A stretch of DNA of 35,387 nucleotides from Ignavibacteria bacterium (lineage in GTDB: Bacteria; Bacteroidota; Ignavibacteria; Ch128b), in NCBI GenBank assembly GCA_026415235.1, contig JAOAHM010000036.1, positions 1 through 35,387 of the forward strand, written 5' to 3'. Position numbers and translations under genes: made by a program. This document shows positions 7,637-20,307 of this stretch, one piece after another. How positions within the stretch are numbered: position 1 is the stretch's first letter; each line of letters opens with the position of its first letter. Under the pieces are notes generated by a model. That model worked only from the letters and a program-made list of their open reading frames with translations, had not been told where the DNA came from and made no database searches.

Positions 7637-8866
7637 TCATTTTTCTTCAACTGGATTCATTTGATAAATTTTAATTTGATTGTGATAATTTTCTCGAGTT
7701 TGTTCAATTAGATTTAAATTATTCTTTCTCGTAGTAAATCTTTCTTTGAGTGGTGGAACAAGTTTCGCCTTCAAAACAATAATCAACTCTTTTTTAGAAT
7801 AAGTTTTTTTATCAAAACCTGTTAGATAACGAATACCAAATACCCACCAAGGTAAATCTTTAAGAATTGGTATTCCACTTCGCTCAACTTTTTCCTCAGT
7901 AATATACAAACCACCGATAACAGTTTCTTCACCATCAACAAGTAAAACATCTGTTTTAGCTTTTGTTTTCTTTATCTCTGTTGAAATTTGTCCTGGGATT
8001 GCATTACTACGCTCAGCTTCTAAATCAATTAAAATGTAATTCTTTCCATCCTCTTCAAATACATAAGGAGTAACTCTAATTATTGTACCTGTAGAATAAA
8101 ATCTTTCAACAGTATTTCCAGCAAAATCTTTTTCTCGTGTTGAAAAGTCGGCACCAACTTGGATTTCACCACGAACTCTATCTCGAACAGTAATTTGTGG
8201 ACTTGCAATCACTTCACCTAATTGATTCTGTTCGAAGAAATTAAATAAGAAGGTTGCTCTTCCTAAGAAGTCACCCATTTGACTTTGAGCATAAAGACCT
8301 AAATTAAAATTCTTTGTCTGATCAGTAGTTTGTTGCGGATTTAAATTAAAAATGTTTGGGTCAACTTGACCAAGTTGACCAGCAAGGTCTACATCTTTAC
8401 TTGAAAGTAACCACTTCCAATTCATTCCCAGCTCTTTTGATTTAGCCACATCAAGTTCAAAGAATATAGCCGATATATTTACTTCTCGAGTAGATAAATC
8501 AACTCCTTTCATTGCATCAGGAACTGGAGGTTTCTCTGCTTTTCTTGGTAAAATTTTTATGTACTCTTCTGTCTCAGTGAATTCGAGATTATTGTATTTT
8601 AAAATCAGCATTAATGCTCTATACCAATTCATTTGAATGATATCAATTCCAATAGGATCTGTAATATCTTCACTTAAAACTATTATCTTGTTAATAAACT
8701 GTTTACTCATCTTGCTTAGCATTTGCATAGCTTGATTGAAAGGCATCGAACCTGAAATCGAAACAAGTTCCTCAGGTGAACTCGAAAGCATTTTTTGAAA
8801 TTCTCTTTGACTTTGTGCTGAACACAAACTTAGAGTAATTATGAGAATGAAAATTAATTTCTTCAT
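7637..8866 (-). CDS. Secretin of a type IV pilus / type II secretion-like system
   Basis: 409 residues with a Sec signal peptide (MKKLIFILIITLSLCSA). Residues ~40-110 look like an N0/STN domain (IDIIQMNWYRALMLILK, then EYIKILP). From ~126 onward is the secretin core: the ASPQITVRD segment (221-229), strands around VTPYVF, and the signature VLLVDGEETVIGGLY followed by GIPILKDLPWW and ELIIVLKAKLV. It would form the outer-membrane ring through which the fibre or substrate passes. It is short compared with PilQ/GspD, with only one clear periplasmic N-domain besides the secretin domain, and it has no AMIN domain. The start ATG overlaps the previous stop (ATGA), with AAGGAG 8 bases upstream. No separate pilotin gene is visible. 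Confidence 0.9.
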   Translation of the reverse strand: MKKLIFILIITLSLCSAQSQREFQKMLSSSPEELVSISGSMPFNQAMQMLSKMSKQFINKIIVLSEDITDPIGIDIIQMNWYRALMLILKYNNLEFTETEEYIKILPRKAEKPPVPDAMKGVDLSTREVNISAIFFELDVAKSKELGMNWKWLLSSKDVDLAGQLGQVDPNIFNLNPQQTTDQTKNFNLGLYAQSQMGDFLGRATFLFNFFEQNQLGEVIASPQITVRDRVRGEIQVGADFSTREKDFAGNTVERFYSTGTIIRVTPYVFEEDGKNYILIDLEAERSNAIPGQISTEIKKTKAKTDVLLVDGEETVIGGLYITEEKVERSGIPILKDLPWWVFGIRYLTGFDKKTYSKKELIIVLKAKLVPPLKERFTTRKNNLNLIEQTRENYHNQIKIYQMNPVEEK

Positions 8867-9756
8867 TTTTTAAACTCCTTAATATTTGCAGCTTTAAGTT
8901 TGAGTGAAACTCTTTCAATAATACCTCCTCGGTTAAGAAGAAATTCACATTGCTGACGCTCATAATCAATTTTTGTAAGATAACCAAGATAAACTGGATC
9001 ACCCTCTGATAATGTATAGGAATTTCCATTTTTATCCATGATAAAAACTGCATCAGGAATAATTGCAAGTAAAGTTGCACCATCCACTTCCAACAAAGCA
9101 TCGTAGTTTGGTGGAATGTCTGGTTGGATTAATGGATAGAAAAGGTCGCTAACAAATTTAATTTCTTTTGGTTTTATTTGTTCATAGTTGAGGGCAAGAT
9201 TAGAATCGGCGGTGAAATATGATTCCAGATTTATATCAAATTCAACTTGATATCGTATCTCACCTTTACCAGTTGTAAGAGTTGCATTTCTTAAATTAAG
9301 AGAAGTTATTTTGTAAAGTTTTTTAGATTTCTCGAGTTCATAAATTAATTTGAAAACATCAATAAATTCACCTTGACCACTTATGGAGAAATAATCAACC
9401 GAAGCAGCACCAAAATTTTCTGTTTTGTCGTATTCAATATCAACTCTTGTATATTTTGAGAAACTCTTTGTTATGTTGAGTATATCGTTATATGTATCTG
9501 TGATTGATTGCCTAAATGGAATAGCCTTTGCCATGTTATAAAGAATTGAGTCAATTTTTTCAGATTCTTTCTGTAACGAGTCATACATGGCAGTAAGAGT
9601 TGAAACATCTAAGAATTGTTTGTTGAGATTTTCCAGCTCCAGTTGTTTTCTTTTTATTTGCTTCGGTTGGTAACCGATAACATAATAACCTCCTGCAGAA
9701 ATCAACAAAATTAAGAATAGGAGGAGTATGAGAGCATTGCGAGTTGTATTACTCAT
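8863..9756 (-). CDS. PilO-like inner-membrane protein fused to a PilP-like domain
   Basis: 297 residues: a short cytoplasmic tail, one membrane helix (~8-27), a coiled-coil segment (~30-75) and a ferredoxin-like PilO domain (~85-182, with ISGQGEFIDVFKLIYELEK and ITSLNLRNATL as typical strands). After a linker, residues ~200-290 carry a second beta-rich domain (LLAIIPDAVFIMDKNGNSYT, EGDPVYLGYL, FLLNRGGIIERVSLKL) that resembles the PilP/GspC homology region, which docks on the secretin. In standard systems PilO and PilP are separate proteins. Position between PilM-PilN and the secretin matches the pilMNOPQ order. It begins immediately after the PilM-PilN stop codon. The PilO part is confident; the PilP assignment is from pattern and position. 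Confidence 0.75.
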   Translation of the reverse strand: MSNTTRNALILLLFLILLISAGGYYVIGYQPKQIKRKQLELENLNKQFLDVSTLTAMYDSLQKESEKIDSILYNMAKAIPFRQSITDTYNDILNITKSFSKYTRVDIEYDKTENFGAASVDYFSISGQGEFIDVFKLIYELEKSKKLYKITSLNLRNATLTTGKGEIRYQVEFDINLESYFTADSNLALNYEQIKPKEIKFVSDLFYPLIQPDIPPNYDALLEVDGATLLAIIPDAVFIMDKNGNSYTLSEGDPVYLGYLTKIDYERQQCEFLLNRGGIIERVSLKLKAANIKEFKK

Positions 9757-11289
9757 TTATTGTACTCCTCTATAACCGTATTTATCTGGTTTAAGATTTA
9801 TTTCGAACCGATTGACCTCTCTTTCTCGTAACTCCTGACTAATCATACTTTTTAGCAAAGCTTTATCAAGATGATCTGAAAAATCTGGTATTGTGTATTT
9901 GTTAATACCAATTCCAAAAATTTTAACTCCTTCATTACTTGCAGCAATACTTGTTAACCAAATTCTCCTTCGTTGTGGTTGAAACTCTTGTATTTTCATT
10001 AAAATTTCAGTCCATCTCTCAGCACCTAAAATTAAAGTATCTATAGTTTGTTGGATTCTTCTTCCTGCTTCAATTCTATTCGAAAGTTGAGTTACTCTAT
10101 TTACAAGTTCGGCATTTTCGGCTATCAGAAGTTGTTTACTTTGAATTTCTGTTTGTAGTACTTGTAACTTTTTATGATTTGTTATATACCTCTGAGTGAA
10201 GAAGGCAACTGTGAGAAAGATTAAAATTAACAATACATATCCAACAGGATCGAGTTTGAAAATTTTTTGCGCTTCGATTACATCCAAAGGAAGTAGATTA
10301 ACAACTGGGGTTTTTGATTTGTCTTTTAATAAGAAGAAAAATATTGGTGCAATGCAAAAAGCATAAACAGGAATTTGATTCTTTTTATCTTCGCTTAATT
10401 CTGAAAGATCAAGTTCATCAAATTTAATTACTTCTAAATCAGCAAGTGGAAAACTACCATAGAAAGTTAATTGAACAGTCGATTCAGTTACTTCACCAGC
10501 AAGAAAAATTTTATCAATCTCAGAAATTTGTGCAACATCCATTTCGAGATTTATCTTACTTATGATAATATCATGAAAACCAACAGTTTGAACTCCAATA
10601 CCAAGATAACTCGATATATGTTTGATTGTTTTATTTGATATGAAAATTATTCTACTTGAATCGATTCCAACATGAAGAATTAAATAGTTTTTATCTTCCT
10701 GAATATTGTATTTATTCAAAACATAACCAGCAAGACACAAATCGCCAGCAGAGATGAATGGTATTCGAGGCATTCTCATTTTCCAGAATCGTGCAAATTG
10801 ACGAATCTGGTCTAACACAGGAAATTCTTCATTAATATAAGCACTTAGATAAGTGTCATTATAATATTTATAGTAGCGTAAATTCTTTTCGTCAATGGAA
10901 GCAAGTTTGGTTTCAAGCCATTTATCTATGATAAATTGTTTTACTTCTTTATCCTTACCTTTGGGCACATTCGGGATAAGTAAATAAGAAACTTGTGGCT
11001 CAGTTACTACTGGCACAAATACGATGTCCTTGACATTTTTAACTTTATTAATAAGGACATTTGATAACATTGGTTCTTCAAGGACATCTTCGGTCTCTTC
11101 AGTGGGCTCAAAGAGTATTGTGTCAGAATCAATATCAAGTTCGGATTTTTCCTGACCAAAGAATTGATATGGTGAACCTTTTAAACCATAAGTCACAACA
11201 TCTTCTAACTTCAATCCTTTAGAAGTTTTAGAAATGATTGCGACTTTGGTTTCGGGTCCATCAACGAAGATTCCAACATATTTTTTCAT
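9757..11289 (-). CDS. PilM-PilN fusion protein (GspL-like layout)
   Basis: 510 residues. The first ~325 form an actin-like PilM/GspL-type ATPase fold: YVGIFVDGPETKVAII resembles the phosphate-1 segment, ILHVGIDSSRIIFI (204-217) phosphate-2, and IDKIFLAGEV an adenosine-like segment. At 330-341 the chain runs straight into VNLLPLDVIEAQ, which is the N-terminal INLLP motif by which PilN normally binds PilM. Then comes one membrane helix (~349-366), a coiled coil (~370-415) and a PilN-like ferredoxin domain (WLTSIAASNEGVKIFGIG). Together these give the layout of GspL: cytoplasmic actin-like part, membrane helix, periplasmic domain. It would link the assembly ATPases to the PilO-PilP protein and the secretin. 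The start overlaps the PilT stop by four bases. Confidence 0.85.
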   Translation of the reverse strand: MKKYVGIFVDGPETKVAIISKTSKGLKLEDVVTYGLKGSPYQFFGQEKSELDIDSDTILFEPTEETEDVLEEPMLSNVLINKVKNVKDIVFVPVVTEPQVSYLLIPNVPKGKDKEVKQFIIDKWLETKLASIDEKNLRYYKYYNDTYLSAYINEEFPVLDQIRQFARFWKMRMPRIPFISAGDLCLAGYVLNKYNIQEDKNYLILHVGIDSSRIIFISNKTIKHISSYLGIGVQTVGFHDIIISKINLEMDVAQISEIDKIFLAGEVTESTVQLTFYGSFPLADLEVIKFDELDLSELSEDKKNQIPVYAFCIAPIFFFLLKDKSKTPVVNLLPLDVIEAQKIFKLDPVGYVLLILIFLTVAFFTQRYITNHKKLQVLQTEIQSKQLLIAENAELVNRVTQLSNRIEAGRRIQQTIDTLILGAERWTEILMKIQEFQPQRRRIWLTSIAASNEGVKIFGIGINKYTIPDFSDHLDKALLKSMISQELREREVNRFEINLKPDKYGYRGVQ

Positions 11290-12554
11290 ATTTTACTCGT
11301 TAATAGTTGTTGGATCCTTGCTTTGTTGTTCGCAAAAGCAATTGCAGTTTCGTAAGTGATTTTTCTTAATTTGAATAGTCGTGCTAAATCCTGTTCCATT
11401 GTATGCATACCGAACTCGCTTCCTTGATGAATCATTTGATAAATTTCACTTGTATTGTTGTTTTTGATTGCAGCTCTCACTGAAGGTGTGACTACTAAAA
11501 CTTCTTTGGCAAGTGTTCTCTTTCCATCTACTGTAGGAACTAACTTTTGCGAAACAATGCATCTCAAAACATCTGCTAAACGCATTCTAACTCTTTCTTG
11601 CTCGTGCACATCTGTTTCACCAATTATTCTATCTATTGTCTCAACTGCTGATGATGTATGAAGTGTTGAAAATACTTTGTGACCACTATCTGTAACATCA
11701 AGAGCAGCTACGATTGTCTCTGGATCTCTTAACTCTCCAATTACAATGATGTCGGGATCTTGTCTTAATGCTTGTATTGTTCCTTCTTTGAAAGATAAAA
11801 CATCTCTTCCAACTTCTCGATGCCTGACCAAACATCTTTTCGATTGATGAACATATTCAACCGGTGAAGAGATGATAATGATGTGTGCATCACAAGTTCG
11901 ATTATTTTCATCAATGATTGCATCAAGCGTAGTAGATTTACCTGAACCAGTTATACCTGTAATCAGAATCAATCCTTCTTTCATGTAGTTTAGATTCATC
12001 AGTTGCGTCACATATGGATGAAAACCAAGTTCTGCAAATGGTCGTAGTTGAGATAAAATTGCTCTGCAGTTTAAGGAAAGTTCATCAAGCTCAAAGTATG
12101 CATCAGCACGATAGCGATAAACTCTTAAATATGGGTGTGTTTCTTTTATTTCAATGGAAAAGTCTAAATTTCTTTTTGTAATTAAAAATTCAATTTGTTT
12201 TTCGCTTAAGATGTTAAGAATAAGAATGCTTGCTTCTGTTGAATTGAATTCTGGTAAATTAGGGATTGGTTTTTTGTTACCATGAATTCTCATCCAAAAA
12301 CGATTTAAACTTCCTGGCCCACCAAAATCCAAATCCGATGCTTCAACTTTATGCATTTCAAAAAGCAAACTCTCCAAAAAATTTCTCATTGCTTCTCGTT
12401 TCTTGTTATCCAATCCTTCAACAAAACTTTTTAGATATAATACTTTATCTATTCCCTTAATGTATTCTGGAACTAATTTGAGTCCTTCACCTGTAATTTC
12501 TTTTACTTGTTTTGTTAGTGAAGAGAATGCGTCTGAATTAATATCTATGAACAT
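11286..12554 (-). CDS. PilT-like ATPase (type IV pilus retraction family)
   Basis: 422 residues. The C-terminal RecA core has Walker A GITGSGKST (200-208), a His box STLHTSS (296-302) and Walker B IIVIGELRD (269-277). The following region (RMRLADVLRCIVSQKLV, GMHTMEQDLARLF) is PilT-specific. The Asp box that reads EDPIEF in PilT is SSPVEY here (229-234), and the AIRNLIRE motif is degenerate (VRAAIKNN). The GspE-like neighbour keeps EDPVEY, so the loss is specific. The N-terminal ~150 residues are longer than in PilT. PilT powers fibre retraction; with these changes the protein may be a slower, regulatory or PilU-like subunit. It lies 2 bases after gspE and overlaps the next gene by ATGA. Confidence 0.85.
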   Translation of the reverse strand: MFIDINSDAFSSLTKQVKEITGEGLKLVPEYIKGIDKVLYLKSFVEGLDNKKREAMRNFLESLLFEMHKVEASDLDFGGPGSLNRFWMRIHGNKKPIPNLPEFNSTEASILILNILSEKQIEFLITKRNLDFSIEIKETHPYLRVYRYRADAYFELDELSLNCRAILSQLRPFAELGFHPYVTQLMNLNYMKEGLILITGITGSGKSTTLDAIIDENNRTCDAHIIIISSPVEYVHQSKRCLVRHREVGRDVLSFKEGTIQALRQDPDIIVIGELRDPETIVAALDVTDSGHKVFSTLHTSSAVETIDRIIGETDVHEQERVRMRLADVLRCIVSQKLVPTVDGKRTLAKEVLVVTPSVRAAIKNNNTSEIYQMIHQGSEFGMHTMEQDLARLFKLRKITYETAIAFANNKARIQQLLTSKI

Positions 12555-12556
12555 AA

Positions 12557-14344
12557 TTAGTCTTCCGTTGTTGATGCAACTACTTCTTCAATTGTTGTTA
12601 ATCCAGCTTTTACTCGTAAAAAGCCAGATTCTCTTAGAGTCAACATTCCTTCTTTTTTAGCTTGCATTCGAATTGCTTCTTCATCAATTTCAGTTCCTGA
12701 TTTGACTATCAATCTTCTAATATCTCTACTGAAATACAAAGCTTCGTGAATTGCCATTCTACCTTTGTAACCAGTATTTGAACAAGCAGGACAACCAACA
12801 GCTTCATAAAAAGTTGTTTCTTTTACATCCTTTTCGCTCATACCTGCAGCCAAAGCAATCTCCTTATCAAAATTTTTTGCAACTCTTTTACATTTCTCAC
12901 ACAACTTTCTAATCAATCTTTGAGCTACAATAATGTTAATTGCATAAGCTATTAGGAATGGTTCTACACCCATTTTGAATAATCGTGAAATTGCGCTTGG
13001 TGCGTCATTTGTGTGAAGCGTTGAAAATGTTAAGTGTCCTGTATTTGCAAGTTTTATAGCGATTTCAGCTGTTTCTTTATCACGCATCTCACCAACGAGA
13101 ACAATATCAGGGTCATGTCGGAGAATTGCACGAAGTGCTTGTTCAAAATCCATCTTCGGTCCAATTTTCAATTGTCGAGCACCTTTAATAACATACTCAA
13201 CTGGATCTTCTACAGTTAAAACATTAACAGTAGGATCAATAACTTGATAAAGTGCAGCTATTAATGTTGTACTTTTTCCTGAACCTGTAGGACCTGTTAA
13301 TATAACCATTCCTTGCGGTTTAGAAATTGCTTTCATGAAAGCGTCATAAGCTGGACCATCAAAACCAATTTTTCTTATATCTGTAATAACTTTTCTATCA
13401 TCAAGAATTCGAATTACACATGATTCAAATTTTGAACTCAACTCAGTTCCAACCATTGGAAGAATAGAAACACGAAAACGAATTATATGTCCATCAATAT
13501 TTCTTTGAATGAATCCATCTTGCGCTTTTTCTCTCTCAAAACGATCTAATCCTCTTGCTCTATCTTTAATAACAGAAAGTACTGCTTCAGGATATGTATT
13601 TTCTTGAACATACCAGAGGGTTAGATTACCATCAATCCTAAAATGAATTTCTGTTCTCATTCCACTCTGAGGAACAAAATGAATATCACTGGCACCCCTT
13701 CTTACACCTTCAACCAATGCACCTTCAACTAAATTTATTAATGTACTTTTTTGGATCTCTGCCTCAAGTGCAGCTTCATCTATTCCTGCTTCTTGAGTTG
13801 TTTCAACTTGTAATTGTTCAGGAACTTCCTCTAACATTTTTAGGAAAATATTTTCTGGAGGAAGTATCTTATTTAGAACTTCATCAAAATCTTTTTTCTT
13901 GATGAAGATGACTTCGTATTTTCTGAATCCAAGACTTGCCGGAAGTTGATGTGTTAAACGATTTGTAGGATCAATTGCTGCAATTATAATTTTATCTTTT
14001 TGATTTGGATCAAATTTTATTGGTACAATCTTAGCTTCAATACAAAGATTTTTAACTTCTTCTGGTGATTTGTTAAGTAACTCTCTAATCTTTTCAGTTT
14101 CTGTCTCAGTCAATGGATATTTTTCTGGTGTATAGATATCAAAACGATAAACTGCAGCAACTTCTTCAAAAATCGTATCGTGATCAAACTTAAAATCCTG
14201 AACTAAAATTTGCGCAAGGTTTCGTCTTGCTCTATCATTCTTTTTAATCTGTAAAGCTTTTTCTAAGGTATTTATATCTATCAAACCTTTTCTAAGTAAC
14301 CAATATCCTACTTTATCAGTTTGTTCTAATGACTCAATTGCCAT
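12557..14344 (-). CDS. GspE/PilB-family assembly ATPase
   Basis: 595 residues, the usual length. Residues ~10-160 are the MshEN/T2SSE N-terminal domain (GYWLLRKGLIDINTLEKAL), which in relatives can bind cyclic di-GMP. The core has GASDIHF (217-223), Walker A GPTGSGKSTT (351-360), Asp box EDPVEY (379-384), Walker B DIVLVGEMRD (413-422), His box STLHTND (441-447) and a zinc tetracysteine C482-x2-C485 plus C518-x2-C521. All catalytic motifs are intact, so this is the likely motor for fibre extension or secretion, acting on the cytoplasmic face of the GspF platform. It is one base downstream of gspF and two bases upstream of the PilT-like gene. Confidence 0.95.
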   Translation of the reverse strand: MAIESLEQTDKVGYWLLRKGLIDINTLEKALQIKKNDRARRNLAQILVQDFKFDHDTIFEEVAAVYRFDIYTPEKYPLTETETEKIRELLNKSPEEVKNLCIEAKIVPIKFDPNQKDKIIIAAIDPTNRLTHQLPASLGFRKYEVIFIKKKDFDEVLNKILPPENIFLKMLEEVPEQLQVETTQEAGIDEAALEAEIQKSTLINLVEGALVEGVRRGASDIHFVPQSGMRTEIHFRIDGNLTLWYVQENTYPEAVLSVIKDRARGLDRFEREKAQDGFIQRNIDGHIIRFRVSILPMVGTELSSKFESCVIRILDDRKVITDIRKIGFDGPAYDAFMKAISKPQGMVILTGPTGSGKSTTLIAALYQVIDPTVNVLTVEDPVEYVIKGARQLKIGPKMDFEQALRAILRHDPDIVLVGEMRDKETAEIAIKLANTGHLTFSTLHTNDAPSAISRLFKMGVEPFLIAYAINIIVAQRLIRKLCEKCKRVAKNFDKEIALAAGMSEKDVKETTFYEAVGCPACSNTGYKGRMAIHEALYFSRDIRRLIVKSGTEIDEEAIRMQAKKEGMLTLRESGFLRVKAGLTTIEEVVASTTED

Positions 14345-14345
14345 A

Positions 14346-15719
14346 TCAGAATAACCCTTGAATTAAATTAATGAATGACATCCCAGGATATTTCGGACGA
14401 ATTGTTGCTGTTTCAGCTGAGATGAGCGTAAGTGCAGTTATAACTATCATGATGAACATAGCAATTGCTAACTGAATCGCTTCAATCAAAAATTTAAGTT
14501 TATGAGTTGTCTCGCTTTCATAATAATTAGCAATTTGCAATGCAACATTTTTCACCGTTCCTGTTTCTTCACCAGAATGAAATCTCGATATAGCTGTTTT
14601 AGTAAAAACACCAGCAGCTTCAAAAGCATCGGTCAATCCTTTACCCTCACGAATCATTATCGGAATAGCTACATTTTTAATTCTATCTTCAAAATATTTA
14701 TTACCTGTTGCTTCAGCAGCAATTCGTATTGGTTCAATATTTTCAGCAGAACCTGTATAGAGCGAATAAAATACTCGACAAAAAATTTCAATGATAGATT
14801 TATGAATTAAATTTCCAATTACAGGAAGTTTCAATAAATATTTATGAAGATTAACTTTTCCTTTCGGTGTTTGATAATAATAGAATAATAATACCACAGG
14901 AATTGCCATTAATAAGAGTATGAACAGAAAATTATTTTGTAAGAAATAACTTAGCTTTAATGTTGCTGCGGTTAACGGTGGAAGTTCAATATCGAATCTC
15001 AAAAACAATTCAGCAGTTGCTGGAAATACTTTTGCAACATAATAAATAACAGTCAAGATTAAAGCAATAACTGTTATGGTCGGAGTAACTAATGCACTTC
15101 TAAGATTTTTTCTAAATTCTTGATTTCTCTCTAAAAATTTTGCCGTTGCAGAATAAATTTCTGCCATATTACCACTTTTAGAAGCAAGTCCTAACATATA
15201 AGCTGTAAATTTTCCTAAAACATGTTCATATCTTCTGAATACTTTTTCACTGTCCTCACCTCGTTTTAAATCATTATTAATTTCTTTTAATGCGTCTCTT
15301 AATGCTTTATTTGTTACATCATTTATCATTAGCTGAAGTATTTCACCATAGGACATTTTCTCTCTTAATAAATCAGCGCTTATTCTAACGAAAGAAACAA
15401 TTTCAGAAGTTGGTGGTTTGGTTTGTAAGTCAAATAATTTTTTTCGTACATAAATTACTTCATAACCGAGTTTAATTAATGCTTGTTCAACTTCAGAAGA
15501 TGCATAAGCTTTCTGTTCACCGACAATTGGTTTACTCAATCCAGGTTTTCTTGCTTTATAAATAAATGTAGATTTTTTTTCAATTGAACGTAGTCTTAAT
15601 TTATTCTTCTCAACAATCTCTTTAATTTTTTGTCTTGCAGCGATGATGTTACTCGAATGAACAATCCCAATAACTGTCTTTCCCGTTGGTGATATTGCGT
15701 TAAATCTATACTCAGGCAT
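14346..15719 (-). CDS. GspF/PilC inner-membrane platform protein
   Basis: 457 residues. Two GspF (T2SSF) helical bundles, ~104-200 (KMSYGEILQL, ANDLKRGE-like NNDLKRGEDSEKVF, LASKSGNMAEIY) and ~305-400 (REGKGLTDAFEAAGVFTKTA, GEETGTVKNVALQIANYYE), alternate with membrane helices at ~209-229, 262-282 and 414-434. Residues 1-47 are the usual N-terminal YRFNAISPTGK module. An extra segment (~68-95, ASSEVEQALIKLGYEVIYV) looks like a partial second copy of that module. The protein is the platform that the assembly ATPase turns to add pilins. It is the first gene of the eight-gene machinery operon and has its own promoter. Confidence 0.95.
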   Translation of the reverse strand: MPEYRFNAISPTGKTVIGIVHSSNIIAARQKIKEIVEKNKLRLRSIEKKSTFIYKARKPGLSKPIVGEQKAYASSEVEQALIKLGYEVIYVRKKLFDLQTKPPTSEIVSFVRISADLLREKMSYGEILQLMINDVTNKALRDALKEINNDLKRGEDSEKVFRRYEHVLGKFTAYMLGLASKSGNMAEIYSATAKFLERNQEFRKNLRSALVTPTITVIALILTVIYYVAKVFPATAELFLRFDIELPPLTAATLKLSYFLQNNFLFILLLMAIPVVLLFYYYQTPKGKVNLHKYLLKLPVIGNLIHKSIIEIFCRVFYSLYTGSAENIEPIRIAAEATGNKYFEDRIKNVAIPIMIREGKGLTDAFEAAGVFTKTAISRFHSGEETGTVKNVALQIANYYESETTHKLKFLIEAIQLAIAMFIMIVITALTLISAETATIRPKYPGMSFINLIQGLF

Positions 15720-15891: not shown

Positions 15892-15925
15892 AATAAAAAA
15901 GCCGTCAAAATTGACGGCTTTTTTG
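15892..15925 (-). terminator. Bidirectional-looking terminator after pilin copy 1
   Basis: GCCGTCAA pairs with TTGACGGC within 15901-15918. On the minus strand the stem is followed by TTTTTTATTT, closing the pilin gene at 15942; on the plus strand a T6 run also follows. It separates pilin mRNA from the machinery operon. Confidence 0.9.
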
Positions 15926-15941
15926 TTGAGTATTCTTCAAC

Positions 15942-16325
15942 TTAGTTATTAATTGTCACAGTAATATTGTCAGGTGTAACAACAGCGGTTGCTCTTACTT
16001 TATTCGTTCCATCGTTACCGGTTTCATTTCCAGTTCCAACAATTGTCACAACAGTAGCTCCAACAGTAGCAGTGTATGTTCCGTTACCAGTTTTAGTTAA
16101 TGATGGTGGAATTGTGAAGCCAGTAAATGAATTACCACCGCCACCAAGAGCAGTTGGTTTACGATAATATTGTTGAGCAAAAGCTCCAATGTTATTTAAA
16201 TCGGCAATGACAGCATCTCTATTTGCACTTTGTGCACTGGTGCTGGCAAGATTAATGCCGACCACTATTGCAATACCAACAATAATTACTCCAATGACGA
16301 TTAATAGAAGTTGTTGTTGACCCAT
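15942..16325 (-). CDS. Small type IV pilin-like protein, copy 1
   Basis: 127 residues. It starts MGQQQ and goes straight into a hydrophobic helix (LLLIVIGVIIVGIAIVVGI, 6-24), followed by an amphipathic stretch (ASTSAQSANRDAVIADLNNI) as in the alpha-1 spine of type IV pilins, the QQYYRKP segment, a GGGG turn (61-64) and a Thr/Asn/Gly/Val-rich beta domain. No Cys is present. There is essentially no leader: at most Met-Gly precedes the possible mature residue, and Glu5 is absent. Its twin at 16524-16907 is identical at 118 of 127 residues. A good ribosome site (AAAGGAG) precedes the ATG. Likely the major fibre subunit with its twin; inferred from size, tandem copies, strong ribosome sites and private terminators. 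Confidence 0.75.
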   Translation of the reverse strand: MGQQQLLLIVIGVIIVGIAIVVGINLASTSAQSANRDAVIADLNNIGAFAQQYYRKPTALGGGGNSFTGFTIPPSLTKTGNGTYTATVGATVVTIVGTGNETGNDGTNKVRATAVVTPDNITVTINN

Positions 16326-16366
16326 AGTTGTACTCCTTTATTTTTTTCATTTTCTGTTTTTTTGTT

Positions 16367-16387
16367 GAGAATTCTACTGGAATTCTC
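16367..16387 (-). promoter_or_regulatory. Perfect inverted repeat in the leader of pilin copy 1
   Basis: GAGAATTC (16367-16374), TACTG, GAATTCTC (16380-16387): 8-bp arms, 5-base loop, ~40 bases before the pilin ATG. It could be an mRNA 5' stabilising hairpin or an operator. No convincing promoter boxes are seen nearby; transcription may start further upstream or continue through the terminator of copy 2. Confidence 0.35.
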
Positions 16388-16490
16388 TCTCATGTGCAAA
16401 ATTGCAAAATATAAATATAAAATCAAATATTTTTTAAGGAAAATTTTAATTTAAGTTAAAACTCAAGATTAAACTTTTTTAAAATTAAGA

Positions 16491-16513
16491 ATAAAAAACC
16501 CCTCAAAGAGGGG
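16491..16513 (-). terminator. Terminator after pilin copy 2
   Basis: CCCCTC (16499-16504), AAA, GAGGGG (16508-16513); read on the minus strand the stem is followed by TTTTTTAT. It lies 10 bases after the stop of the gene ending at 16524. Confidence 0.9.
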
Positions 16514-16523
16514 TTTTGAGAAT

Positions 16524-16907
16524 TTAATTAAGAATTGTAACAGTAATATTTGTAGGTGTAACAACAGCTTGGGCACGAACTTTATTAGTTCCATCATTTC
16601 CTGTTTCATTACCAGTTCCAATAATTGTAACGACGGTTGCTCCAACAGTAGCAGTGTAGGTACCATTACCTGTTTTAGTTAAACTTGGTGGAATAGTCCA
16701 TCCCGTGAAAGAATTACCTCCACCACCCATTGTTGTTGGTTTTCGATAGTACTGTTGGGCGTATGCACCAATATTATTTAGGTCTGCAATTACGGCGTCT
16801 CTATTTGCACTTTGAGCGCTGGTGCTTGCTAATTGAATTCCCACAACAATAGCAATACCAACGATAATGACGCCAATTACGATTAAAAGAAGTTGTTGTT
16901 GACCCAT
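16524..16907 (-). CDS. Small type IV pilin-like protein, copy 2
   Basis: 127 residues, a twin of the gene at 15942-16325 with nine amino-acid differences (positions 25, 49, 59, 60, 70, 96, 113, 119, 126), most of them in the globular part or conservative. It has the same near-absent leader (MGQQQ), hydrophobic helix 6-24 and GGGG turn. The DNA of the two genes differs at many synonymous positions, including Ser codons of different families (AGT versus TCA in TIPPSL), so this is an old pair kept similar by selection, not a fresh duplication. It has the strongest ribosome site in the locus (AAAGGAGG) and the best promoter, so high expression is likely. Probably a major fibre subunit. Confidence 0.75.
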   Translation of the reverse strand: MGQQQLLLIVIGVIIVGIAIVVGIQLASTSAQSANRDAVIADLNNIGAYAQQYYRKPTTMGGGGNSFTGWTIPPSLTKTGNGTYTATVGATVVTIIGTGNETGNDGTNKVRAQAVVTPTNITVTILN

Positions 16908-16947: not shown

Positions 16948-16976
16948 AATATAATCTGTTACAGAAATTAAGTCAA
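16948..16976 (-). promoter_or_regulatory. Strong promoter for pilin copy 2
   Basis: On the minus strand TTGACT (16971-16976), exactly 17 bases, TATATT (16948-16953): five of six at both boxes. The -35 lies just after the stop of the upstream minor-pilin gene (16979). Transcription would start near 16941, ~34 bases before the ATG. Confidence 0.7.
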
Positions 16977-16978
16977 TG

Positions 16979-18106
16979 CTACTCATAAAAATGCAAGGTT
17001 TTCACTTGAACTATATTACCCGAAGTACTTACTGGCCAAGCTTGTTTTGCTAAAAGTTCATTTGCTGGTTTATAATAAACAGTTACATTACCATTCATTT
17101 GAACTGAGTTTTTTGAAACTACATTACCATAAATTCTATTATTACCATTCAATACAACATTACCATTTGCGTACAACTGAGCATTCAATGTCACATTACC
17201 GTTTACAATTAAATCATTTTTTGAGTAAATACCAATATTACTAACTGTTGGATCTGGTGAATTTATAGTTACATTACCACTGATTATTACATTGCCTAAG
17301 CTTACAAAAATCCCGTATCCTGTTACATTTCCACTTATTGAAAGGTCACCAGTAACATAAATTATTTTTGGATTTTCTTTCGTTCCAAGAGTAATATTTC
17401 CACTGAACGATTTATTTCCATAATAAATATCCGTGGCTTTGTTTTTTATATCATTTGGATCTATGTCTGGAATATTAACTTGTTGAGTTTGAAAATGAAC
17501 AGGTAGATTAGTTGGATTTGAAACTGGAGTAATTCTCGTGTTAAGAGCATTAGCTGGATTTGATTGTGCCGAGCCGGTGTAAGTTAAAAAACCATCAATA
17601 TCATTATTACCATTCATTGAGAAGTTACCGTTGACATGTACATTAGCATTTAATCCATTGCCAGCATTTGTTATTGTCACCCCACCATTCAAATTTAAAT
17701 TTCTACCACTTAAAACAGCATATCTCATAAAAGGTGGCAATCCTCCGCTTCCCATTTTTTCAATACTAAAATAAGCTTCCGAAATTTTTGTAACCCCTTC
17801 ATACCTTGCTATCACCTCCGCTTTTACAAAAGGAGCTGAATTAATAAAGGTATCAATTAATCTATAACTTGCTATCCCACCCATCACATTTTCAGTTATT
17901 TGGTTTATCACTCTATATGTTGTATCAGAAAGCAATTTTATCTTTAAAACATCAATCATAGAATTTGCAATATTTTTTGCATAAACATCTCTATAATAAT
18001 TTGAAGTTGATGTTCCAGCATCTGAAGTAGAACGGTTAATCTGAATTGAAACTATACCAAAAGTTAAAATTGCTGAGAATAATATTATTAAAATTGTTCT
18101 TCCCAT
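16979..18106 (-). CDS. PilX-like minor pilin with a glycine-asparagine beta-helix head
   Basis: 375 residues. A membrane helix begins at residue 4 (MGRTILIILFSAILTFGIV) with no leader. Residues ~25-115 form a PilX-like region shared with the next gene (YR, KNIANSMIDVLKIKLLSDTTYRVIN, MGG). Residues ~130-355 contain about ten N/S-G-N motifs (VNGNFSMNGNND, SISGNVTG, IVNGNVTLN, YANGNVVLNGNN, MNGNVTVY) at irregular intervals of ~10-25 residues. This is the pattern of a right-handed beta-helix or bactofilin-like fold, known in some large pilus-tip or PilX-like proteins. Likely a minor subunit carrying a rod-like head, perhaps at the fibre tip. AAAGGAG overlaps the 12-base gap from the upstream paralogue. 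Confidence 0.65.
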   Translation of the reverse strand: MGRTILIILFSAILTFGIVSIQINRSTSDAGTSTSNYYRDVYAKNIANSMIDVLKIKLLSDTTYRVINQITENVMGGIASYRLIDTFINSAPFVKAEVIARYEGVTKISEAYFSIEKMGSGGLPPFMRYAVLSGRNLNLNGGVTITNAGNGLNANVHVNGNFSMNGNNDIDGFLTYTGSAQSNPANALNTRITPVSNPTNLPVHFQTQQVNIPDIDPNDIKNKATDIYYGNKSFSGNITLGTKENPKIIYVTGDLSISGNVTGYGIFVSLGNVIISGNVTINSPDPTVSNIGIYSKNDLIVNGNVTLNAQLYANGNVVLNGNNRIYGNVVSKNSVQMNGNVTVYYKPANELLAKQAWPVSTSGNIVQVKTLHFYE

Positions 18107-18118
18107 TTTTAACTCCTT

Positions 18119-19234
18119 TCATTCATAGATATACAATAGGTTAAGGCTTCTTTTACCTCCTCCAATTCCACTTGAACCACCGTATTGAGAGGCAAAGAAA
18201 GTCGCTTCTTTGACCGCTGCAGAAGAATAATATATCTTATGATCATTATTTCCTTTACATTCTTTCACCATTTCTAAATTAGGTGAAAGTAATATCAATC
18301 CACCATAAATATCAAGATGAAGATGAAACATATAATCACCAATTATCAAACCCTTAAACGGTCTTGTTGCTCTCAATTGAATTACACGAGTATTACCAGC
18401 TGGATTATGAACTACAAAAATACCCGAACTCTCTAATCCACCTAAATTAATTTTTACTTCGTCATCATTTGGAAGTTCTAAATATGTTACTCCACGGAGT
18501 GGAAGTTTTATTTTGTTATCATCAGTAACATATTGACTTCCATTAACACCACTTTGAGCAATCTTTTTCAATGTCCCTTCTGGAAATCCAAGGATTTTGT
18601 CGGGACTATCGGGAAATTTTCCGCCCCAATTATAATTTTGCTCAACCACTATTGGATTTTCTGGAAACTTTGGAGGATAATCTACCCCATTAACGGTTCC
18701 ACCTATCATTGCACCTTGAAGATTTGTAAATGAAGTTCCAGATGAAACACCATAAATCCCCTTATTCGGAATTACATTTCCGTTCAAGTCATGATCTCGT
18801 CCATCAATTATCATATCGCTTATTGTCTTGTTCAAACTCGCGTTTGCAGTTACTGCTCCACGCAAGGTTGGTGGAACAAATCCACCTGTAAATTTAACAT
18901 AAGCTATAGTTTCTTTGTTTAGTCCTTCATATGTGGAATTAATTCTTATTTGAATAACGCTATCTTTACCAATCACAGTATCCTTGATAGTAAATTTCGA
19001 AGTTCCACCCATCAAGCTAAGAGTTTGTTCATTTAAAACACGATAACTTGTACTATCAGCCAATCGAGACATTAAAATATCCAAAGTGCTTAACGAAATG
19101 TTTCGAACATAACTAATTCTGTAATTTTTAACTGCTTCAGTTTCACTATGTCTTGATGAACTCATCGTAGAGACAGAATAGATTCCAAAAATGATTAAAG
19201 CACCAGATAAAATTATGATAACTGCACGTCCCAA
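18119..19234 (-). CDS. PilX-like minor pilin, paralogue of the beta-helix gene
   Basis: 371 residues. The N-terminus (MGRAVIIILSGALIIFGIY) and the next ~110 residues match the downstream paralogue in layout: YRISYVRNISLSTLDILMSRLADSTSYRVLNE, then MGG and an ETIAYVKF strand. The C-terminal ~250 residues differ: no regular NGN repeats, but Gly/Asn-rich segments (IIDGRDHDLNGNVIPNKGIY, GVTYLELPNDDEVKINLGG, FKGLIIGDYMF) suggest an irregular beta structure like that of DUF-type 'pilus assembly PilX' C-terminal domains. Both paralogues end in a Tyr-Glu (LLYIYE and LHFYE). It is 11 bases after the PilW-like gene. Probable minor pilin with a specialised head; partner unknown. Confidence 0.6.
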   Translation of the reverse strand: MGRAVIIILSGALIIFGIYSVSTMSSSRHSETEAVKNYRISYVRNISLSTLDILMSRLADSTSYRVLNEQTLSLMGGTSKFTIKDTVIGKDSVIQIRINSTYEGLNKETIAYVKFTGGFVPPTLRGAVTANASLNKTISDMIIDGRDHDLNGNVIPNKGIYGVSSGTSFTNLQGAMIGGTVNGVDYPPKFPENPIVVEQNYNWGGKFPDSPDKILGFPEGTLKKIAQSGVNGSQYVTDDNKIKLPLRGVTYLELPNDDEVKINLGGLESSGIFVVHNPAGNTRVIQLRATRPFKGLIIGDYMFHLHLDIYGGLILLSPNLEMVKECKGNNDHKIYYSSAAVKEATFFASQYGGSSGIGGGKRSLNLLYIYE

Positions 19235-19245
19235 ATTAGCATCTC

Positions 19246-19818
19246 CTATAAATTTTTTGGTCTAATTATCTTTTTTATTTCAGCACCAGGATAATAACCT
19301 TCTATTGGATAAATCGATTCAACTCTTATGTAATATCCTATTGATTTGATTCTATCTCTTTGTGTTTGGCTTGAAAGAGAAGCATAATTCATCGTCGTGT
19401 TTGCTGAATCAAGATAAGTAAATTTAAAATCAACTACACCAAGATTCGAGCCTCGACGTGGTTGGTTATTAAGAACTCTATACAAAATTCTGTCTCTTGG
19501 ATTTGGAGTAGAGGTTAACTCACTCGTTGGACCAAGGACATATTCTAAGGTATCAACCTTTCCATTATTATCTAAATCGCTTTGAAAAACTAATCTTGTT
19601 GAGTCAGCGAAAAGAATTTTTGAGCCCGATACTCGATACCCTACCTTGTATAAATCATAGTCTAAAACTTCGGCAATTTCTTTAACATTCATCTGAGCAA
19701 TATTTGCATTAGTAATTTCTCTTGAAGAGCTCTGGATATAAAAAGTTATTCCGATTATCATTAATATCAAAATTGCTCCGATGAATGTTGCTGTGATAAT
19801 ATCTAATAATGTCGACAT
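19246..19818 (-). CDS. PilW/GspJ-like minor pilin
   Basis: 190 residues. It begins MSTLLDIITATFIGAILILMI: after loss of the initiator Met, S-T-L-L-D aligns with the mature pilin start F-T-L-I-E, with Asp replacing Glu5. The body resembles PilW/GspJ minor pilins: MNVKEIAEVLDYDLYKVGYRVSG, then a calcium-type DLDNNGKVDTL segment (81-91; D-x-D/N-x-D/G pattern) followed by a beta-rich C-terminal part that describes a GVVDFKFTYLD strand. There is no Sec or type IV leader. It begins 3 bases after the preceding stop, so translation is coupled. Probably a part of the priming/tip complex. Confidence 0.65.
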   Translation of the reverse strand: MSTLLDIITATFIGAILILMIIGITFYIQSSSREITNANIAQMNVKEIAEVLDYDLYKVGYRVSGSKILFADSTRLVFQSDLDNNGKVDTLEYVLGPTSELTSTPNPRDRILYRVLNNQPRRGSNLGVVDFKFTYLDSANTTMNYASLSSQTQRDRIKSIGYYIRVESIYPIEGYYPGAEIKKIIRPKNL

Positions 19819-19821
19819 AGT

Positions 19822-20307
19822 TTAATAAGTAACTACTCTGTACATTTTAATTGTGTCTGTGATGAAATTGTTTCTAACAAAGACTTCTATTCTTTTAGCA
19901 AAAGTTCGAGTATTACTTGTAATATCAGGATTATTTACATTTACATAAAACACTCTCACTGACGAAATAAAGTTTCCAAGTCTTGAAAGATTTTCACTTC
20001 TTTGATAACCATTGTAATCGTCAATATCATCATATTTTGTATAATCATTTTCGCCAAGATCAGGTCCTAATAAATTAACTGGTGTTAAAGAATCAGGTGT
20101 AGAGATAACATTTCCAATAGATTTTTCATCAAAATCTTTAATTGTAATTTCATCAATTAGTGATTGAGCTATTGCACTTCCAGTAAGTAGAGCTTCGTTT
20201 GCAACAGCTAAAGCAAATCGTGAAGTAGTTGACCTATATACAGTTAAGATAAATATTGTAAAAAGTAATAAGCCAACTGTTACAAGTAATGTTTGTCCAG
20301 TATTCAT
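19822..20307 (-). CDS. PilV/GspI-like minor pilin
   Basis: 161 residues. The hydrophobic helix starts at ~7 (MNTGQTLLVTVGLLLFTIFILTVYRS). It is followed by a helix rich in small residues (ALAVANEALLTGSAIAQSLIDEI), like the alpha-1 C half of PilV-type proteins, and a small beta domain with FISSVRVFYV and AKRIEVFVRN strands. There is no leader, no Glu5 and no Cys. It is the first gene of the four minor-pilin genes (20307 to 16979), all 3-12 bases apart. Assignment as PilV-like rests on order and shape; sequence similarity by eye is weak. Confidence 0.55.
   Translation of the reverse strand: MNTGQTLLVTVGLLLFTIFILTVYRSTTSRFALAVANEALLTGSAIAQSLIDEITIKDFDEKSIGNVISTPDSLTPVNLLGPDLGENDYTKYDDIDDYNGYQRSENLSRLGNFISSVRVFYVNVNNPDITSNTRTFAKRIEVFVRNNFITDTIKMYRVVTY

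Follow-up and report, generated by a model that had tools for sequence, protein, structure and literature searches.

In type IV filament assembly, the processing of prepilins by prepilin peptidase is regarded as both defining and essential. Loci for the mannose-sensitive haemagglutinin (MSHA) pilus without a prepilin peptidase gene of their own have been described, and the excerpted account states that MSH genomes always hold another peptidase-bearing system (PMC6668835). In the excerpted genome report on Melioribacter roseus, pilT, pilQ, pilB and pilC were listed, pilA and pilD were not found, and the pilus set was judged probably incomplete by its authors (PMC3534657). Here a pilus operon was analysed on a stretch of 35,387 nucleotides from an Ignavibacteria bacterium (contig JAOAHM010000036.1, assembly GCA_026415235.1; hereafter the window), in which two tandem genes encode near-identical pilins. 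From their sequences and predicted models, it is quite likely that these twins are anciently duplicated major pilins of a type IV pilus-like machine that would lack the class III leader and the glutamate at position 5 (Glu5) and would need no prepilin peptidase. No report of leaderless type IV pilins or of a peptidase-free system was found in the open-licence literature (titles and abstract openings). An initial annotation of the window had pointed out the twins; its observation was confirmed and its interpretation was partly supported. Pilins without a leader peptide, in a genome without a detectable prepilin peptidase, are new beyond that annotation.

N-termini and predicted fold of the pilins

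The twin open reading frames (ORFs) encode 127 residues each and lie on the minus strand, as do all features below unless stated otherwise. Copy 2 is the upstream twin (16524-16907, beginning MGQQQLLLIVIG) and copy 1 the downstream twin (15942-16325). The N-terminus, MG(Q/T/S)QQ(L/I)LL, leads straight into a hydrophobic helix with no basic leader. Motif-bearing pilin ORFs were collected from 78 named loci of the family; 126 were found, and one cut by a contig end was dropped. In all 125 intact relatives the start codon (ATG in 109, TTG in 11, GTG in 5) stood directly before the GQQQ-type (GQQQLLL) sequence, and thus no class III leader is encoded. An AGGAGG-like site (at least 4 of 6 matches) was located 4-8 bases before the start in 99 of the 125. 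Translation start was taken as fixed because the start codon always adjoins the motif and a ribosome-binding-like site lies upstream. The consensus of 88 aligned pilins has no Glu within M1-G23, so that Glu5 is lacking; L6, L7 and L8 are conserved. Minor-pilin-like genes of both Ignavibacteria and sister phyla likewise reach the helix a few residues after Met. The profile used for one of them ('mpA') spread into the pilin family, and most of its rows are pilins that were not counted as minor pilins.

The twins had been annotated as pilins, which is borne out by a predicted type IV pilin fold and by the gene neighbourhood. The AlphaFold model of copy 2 (predicted local distance difference test score, pLDDT, 89.8) contains a helix at residues 3-55 and a four-stranded sheet. 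Its best 17 rows in VIA-align were all type IV pilins, among them PilV (Z 9.1, root-mean-square deviation (rmsd) 2.7, 86 residues aligned) and full-length PAK pilin (Z 7.5, rmsd 3.1, 115 aligned). For the adjacent leaderless minor pilin D (19822-20307, beginning MNTGQTLL; pLDDT 92.9) the top row was the GspI-type XcpV (Z 8.2, rmsd 2.2, 81 aligned), and the top six rows were GspI-type pseudopilins and Thermus type IV-like pilins. No Pfam or NCBIfam family scored above its cut-off for the pilin; weak matches to ComP_DUS (minor pilin) were recorded in 15 of 88 relatives, the best at 1e-4. A profile search of PDB sequences gave nothing relevant (best E 0.34, with a geopilin at 0.98).

The locus combines this predicted pilin fold with an extension ATPase, a platform protein and an outer-membrane secretin, as in type IV filaments. 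The type II secretion system (T2SS) is not known to have a PilT-type ATPase; the window encodes one that scores over its family cut-off. In its machinery the system is related to the type IV pilus, and it is classed as a variant, predicted from sequences and models to work like a type IV pilus, because leader, Glu5 and peptidase, usually defining, were each tested and found to be lacking.

Prepilin peptidase genes and the processing question

The window's own genome holds one PilB and one PilT, and no prepilin peptidase (PilD) was found in it. A class sample of 149 Ignavibacteria genomes, evenly drawn from a larger group, was searched. The pilin family was present in 82 and T2SSF/PilC in 81, with both in 79. 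Peptidase_A24 (PF01478) was detected in 8 of the 149, and it was missing from 71 of the 79 genomes with pilin and PilC. PF06750 scored in 11 of the sample, three of them weakly. A ten-sequence PilD profile returned E below 1e-20 only in the same eight genomes, and weak fragments in four others. As a control, PF01478 was detected in 12 of 14 known genomes.

Where PilD occurs in the class, it tracks a separate, ordinary pilus system. A high-scoring additional T2SSF was found in 7 of the 8 PilD genomes versus 3 of the 141 others (Fisher 3e-9). Ordinary G|FxxxE prepilins were present in all six wide stretches around PilD (six genomes) and in six of eight short ones, together covering all 8 genomes; in G123 the ordinary prepilin lies about 15 kb from the peptidase. 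Three matches to this pattern in the 78 leaderless loci (1.23 Mb) were inspected by eye and rejected as prepilin N-termini. A further 16 named genomes, one previously searched, yielded a peptidase in three, which by identical coordinates are G057, G105 and G133 again. In 12 peptidase stretches from outgroup genomes no leaderless pilin was seen, and 11 of the 12 hold distant PilB or PilC relatives (17-41% identity to those of the window).

Several points weigh against a pilus built without processing. The leaderless pilus is described here from genes and predicted models, Foldseek by itself matched no PDB structure with an E value of 0.001 or lower, and the window's own genome is 88.8% complete. 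Outside Ignavibacteria the leaderless system usually coexists with a peptidase: PF01478 was found in 15 of 21 genomes reached via the named loci, mostly outside the class, the six without it being four Ignavibacteria-type records, Kryptonium and BMS3Abin04. Ordinary prepilins were recognised in just 2 of the 12 outgroup peptidase stretches. The main doubt is that the pilins could be cut after Gly2 by a peptidase of another kind. M-G would then be an ultra-short leader, removed by an enzyme unrelated to family A24, and the pilins would be processed after all. Gly2 does not vary in any of the 88 aligned pilins, and minor pilin D mostly has G, A or S ahead of its conserved Gln, which resembles a cleavage site; the frequent presence of PilD in outgroup genomes points the same way. 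This explanation is nevertheless considered unlikely, since no membrane protease gene was seen in the window's operon or in the inspected syntenic operons, and most class genomes with this pilin have no A24 peptidase. A leader of one or two residues without Lys or Arg would also be unlike known type IV prepilin leaders.

An alternative that we rate as very improbable, and that is mostly refuted, is that a prepilin peptidase is present and was missed, either because genomes are incomplete or because the enzyme has diverged. Many of the genomes, it is true, are metagenome-assembled genomes (MAGs), and the window's own genome falls short of completeness. However, the genomes without peptidase include the single-contig G034, G112 and G118 and genomes that are 98-100% complete, and the two Pfam profiles and the tailored profile agree on the same 8 peptidase genomes.

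If the pilins are used unprocessed, the machine could work as follows. Major and minor subunits would be translated without a class III leader, from M-G straight into the long hydrophobic helix, which would serve as an uncleaved signal anchor with its N-terminus in the cytoplasm. Met1 may be trimmed off, given the Gly at position 2. PilC and PilB would polymerise the leaderless subunits as in type IV pili, PilT would retract them, and the fibre would leave through the secretin. Such pilins would need no peptidase, which on this proposal is why it is gone from most of these genomes. On balance it seems probable that Ignavibacteria and sister phyla build fibres from never-leadered subunits, with PilD processing and N-methylation dispensable and the twins as two subunit types. 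If true, a machine that does without leader and peptidase would reveal what the pilin N-terminus really has to provide for membrane extraction and packing. Leaderless pilins and the absence of the peptidase may also explain why Ignavibacteria seemed to have no complete pilus, and the pilin gene offers a defined knockout target in a cultured strain.

Age and conservation of the twin genes

The initial annotation had described two near-identical ORFs with frequent synonymous differences, including AGT against TCA for serine, and both statements were reproduced. Copy 1 and copy 2 share 118 of 127 residues (nine differences), and their nucleotide identity is 307/384. Different codons are used at 54 of the 118 common residues, Ser75 (TCA versus AGT) among them. 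The pair gave dN 0.074 and dS 1.16 (NG86); a maximum-likelihood dS estimate of 12.9 was not used. Synonymous sites are near saturation, with 63 of 117 common codons identical compared with 54.8 +/- 4.2 expected (P 0.034, within-gene codon shuffle). A conversion tract was sought in the pair and none was found; the longest run of identical codons was 6, compared with a mean of 6.4 expected, and as this is chance level there is no sign of conversion in the twins.

Trees were computed for 15 pilins from six genomes of the order, using protein, nucleotide and codon data; branch lengths in the codon model were saturated, and only topology was used. The copies fell on opposite sides of one split (support 75 for protein, 94 for nucleotide and 74 for codon data), and many inner branches were weak. 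Copy 2 grouped with the upstream copy of the same-genus genome G002 and with the pilins of G004 and G005, and copy 1 with the downstream copy of G002 and the remaining pilins. At positions 59, 60, 70 and 119, copy 2 has T-M-W-T and copy 1 has A-L-F-D; the same contrast separates the copies of G002, so that four of the nine differing positions recur there. From the grouping across genomes and this shared contrast, the duplication is most likely older than the separation of these species. The earlier view of an old rather than a recent duplication thus stands, and the pattern it had named as contrary, a by-genome grouping of the copies together with low synonymous divergence, was looked for and not seen. 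The least probable of the alternatives, that the twins are recently duplicated or homogenised by gene conversion, could appeal to 7 of 45 tandem pairs at named loci with 84-98% identity, in some of which synonymous divergence is low, and to a 12-codon identical run between the second-operon pilin of G002 and its copy-1 type (P 0.026; 12 pairs were tested), but the window pair itself has a high dS, no conversion run and copies that group across rather than within genomes.

A particular cause for the match between the twins had been proposed, either two separately tuned doses of one subunit or a heteropolymer with matching surfaces, and none is needed. Same-genus pilins in the orthologue comparison are 85-98% identical with synonymous sites equally saturated (dS = -1 in the between-species comparison means saturation). 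Copy 1 and the downstream copy of G002, for example, are 97% identical with 66 of 123 common codons changed. As pilins of different species show the same kept protein and the same saturated synonymous sites, no twin-specific constraint has to be invoked, and strong purifying selection of the ordinary kind is enough to explain the similarity; acting on the pilin everywhere, it would keep the twins near-identical. The two residue types at positions 59, 60, 70 and 119 suggest co-subunits or alternative subunits, not mere dose, a division of labour read from the sequences.

Each copy had also been assigned its own terminator, which agrees with our results. An intrinsic terminator follows copy 2 (hairpin at 16517-16495, -14.0 kcal/mol, z -4.1), and a terminator-like palindrome follows copy 1 (15892-15927, -17.6 kcal/mol, z -7.4; placed on the minus strand here, with a T run on both strands, and listed on the plus strand by the scan). 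In G002 a terminator likewise follows each twin copy. The strong promoter claimed for copy 2 corresponds to a sigma-70-like site at 16948-16976 (TTGACT-17-TATATT, 10/12 match). The match is present, and the description as strong was not upheld: no minus-strand sigma-70-like match was found at the equivalent place in G002, and how well the sigma-70 consensus applies to this group is uncertain, which leaves the detail weak.

The operon, related loci and known systems

The order of transcription is four minor-pilin-like genes (20307 to 16979), copy 2, its terminator, copy 1, its terminator, pilC, pilB, pilT, a PilM/N-like gene, a PilO-like gene and the secretin. Besides minor pilin D, the leaderless minor-pilin-like proteins are C (19246-19818, beginning MSTLLDIITATFIGA) and B (18119-19234, MGRAVIIIL), and A (16979-18106, MGRTILIIL), with a long domain, beta-helix-like hits and a relative in G002 at 66%. 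Protein A matches DUF2572 and bactofilin/MinC_C-like beta-helices and is a possible tip adhesin. Downstream lie the PilC/GspF platform protein (14346-15719; Pfam T2SSF, 2e-28), the PilB extension ATPase (12557-14344; NCBIfam type_IV_pilB 6.9e-131, under the equivalog cut-off; T2SSE 347 bits) and the PilT-type ATPase (11286-12554; NCBIfam pilT_fam 321 bits, cut-off 319). The PilM/PilN-like protein (9757-11289) is named from its position and a sub-threshold match to Amuc_1101_fam (E 0.012), the PilO-like protein (8863-9756) from position and shape, and the PilQ-like secretin (7637-8866) from NCBIfam IV_pilus_PilQ (9.7e-27, under cut-off). Elsewhere in the window, a C-terminal type IX secretion-like sorting domain was noted by eye in the translation of 10-519.

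Roughly half of the sampled Ignavibacteria carry the system, which is also found in genomes of Calditrichota, KSB1 and Cloacimonadota. Tandem pilin pairs occur at 39 of the 78 named loci; 38 of the 45 pairs are 40-64% identical, so that near-identical twins (the seven pairs above) are a minority form of a common arrangement. Near-identical tandem pilins (84-98%) were observed at L089, which has a triple array, and at L101, L080, L082, L074 and L055. Some have much lower synonymous divergence, and recent duplication therefore also occurs in the family. L106, in a record titled Deltaproteobacteria N074bin48, carries leaderless pilin genes and is possibly a mislabelled or mixed bin.

A second pilus operon was found in the window's own genome (pilin at C33 13797-14177; L143 8798-14891) and in G002 (C1; L142 3319-9423), each with a pilin 95-98% identical to copy 1. 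It has its own secretin, PilM/N-like and PilO-like proteins and minor pilins, with no pilB or pilC on the stretch retrieved, and its PilM/N-like protein is only 27-28% identical to the main-operon counterpart. With only one PilB and one PilT in the window's own genome, the two operons probably rely on a common motor. That genome also holds an orphan diverged pilin (C22 3957-4340, L144; MGQTQILL), 57% identical to copy 2, and no other pilus gene was recognised on its 10.4-kb contig.

Among described systems, e-pilin candidates were found in one Ignavibacteriales genome with Geobacter PilA as query, according to the excerpted report, so that some members have ordinary pilins (PMC7399161). Akkermansia was followed as a lead and set aside, since the excerpted text reports an A24 peptidase for it (PMC10540074). 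The window's operon resembles that of a type IVa pilus in uniting extension ATPase, PilT-type ATPase, platform, secretin, predicted pilin fold and minor pilins. It differs in that its pilins have neither class III leader nor Glu5, and in the missing peptidase of most class genomes with pilin and PilC. The predicted fold of minor pilin D is like that of GspI (XcpV, EpsI) of type II secretion; unlike GspI, minor pilin D is leaderless and its operon includes a PilT-type ATPase. As at the MSHA loci in their excerpted account, there is no peptidase gene at the locus, whereas most leaderless-pilin genomes here have none anywhere. M. roseus belongs to the same class, and pilT, pilQ, pilB and pilC are reported in it; unlike the set in the excerpted report, a MAG so named does hold tandem pilins of the window family (L058), with no A24 peptidase (G170). 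The published genome study is presumably that of Kadnikov et al. 2013. The pilA not found in M. roseus is therefore probably this leaderless gene, overlooked by searches built around a leader, and the pilD that was likewise not found would probably not be needed.
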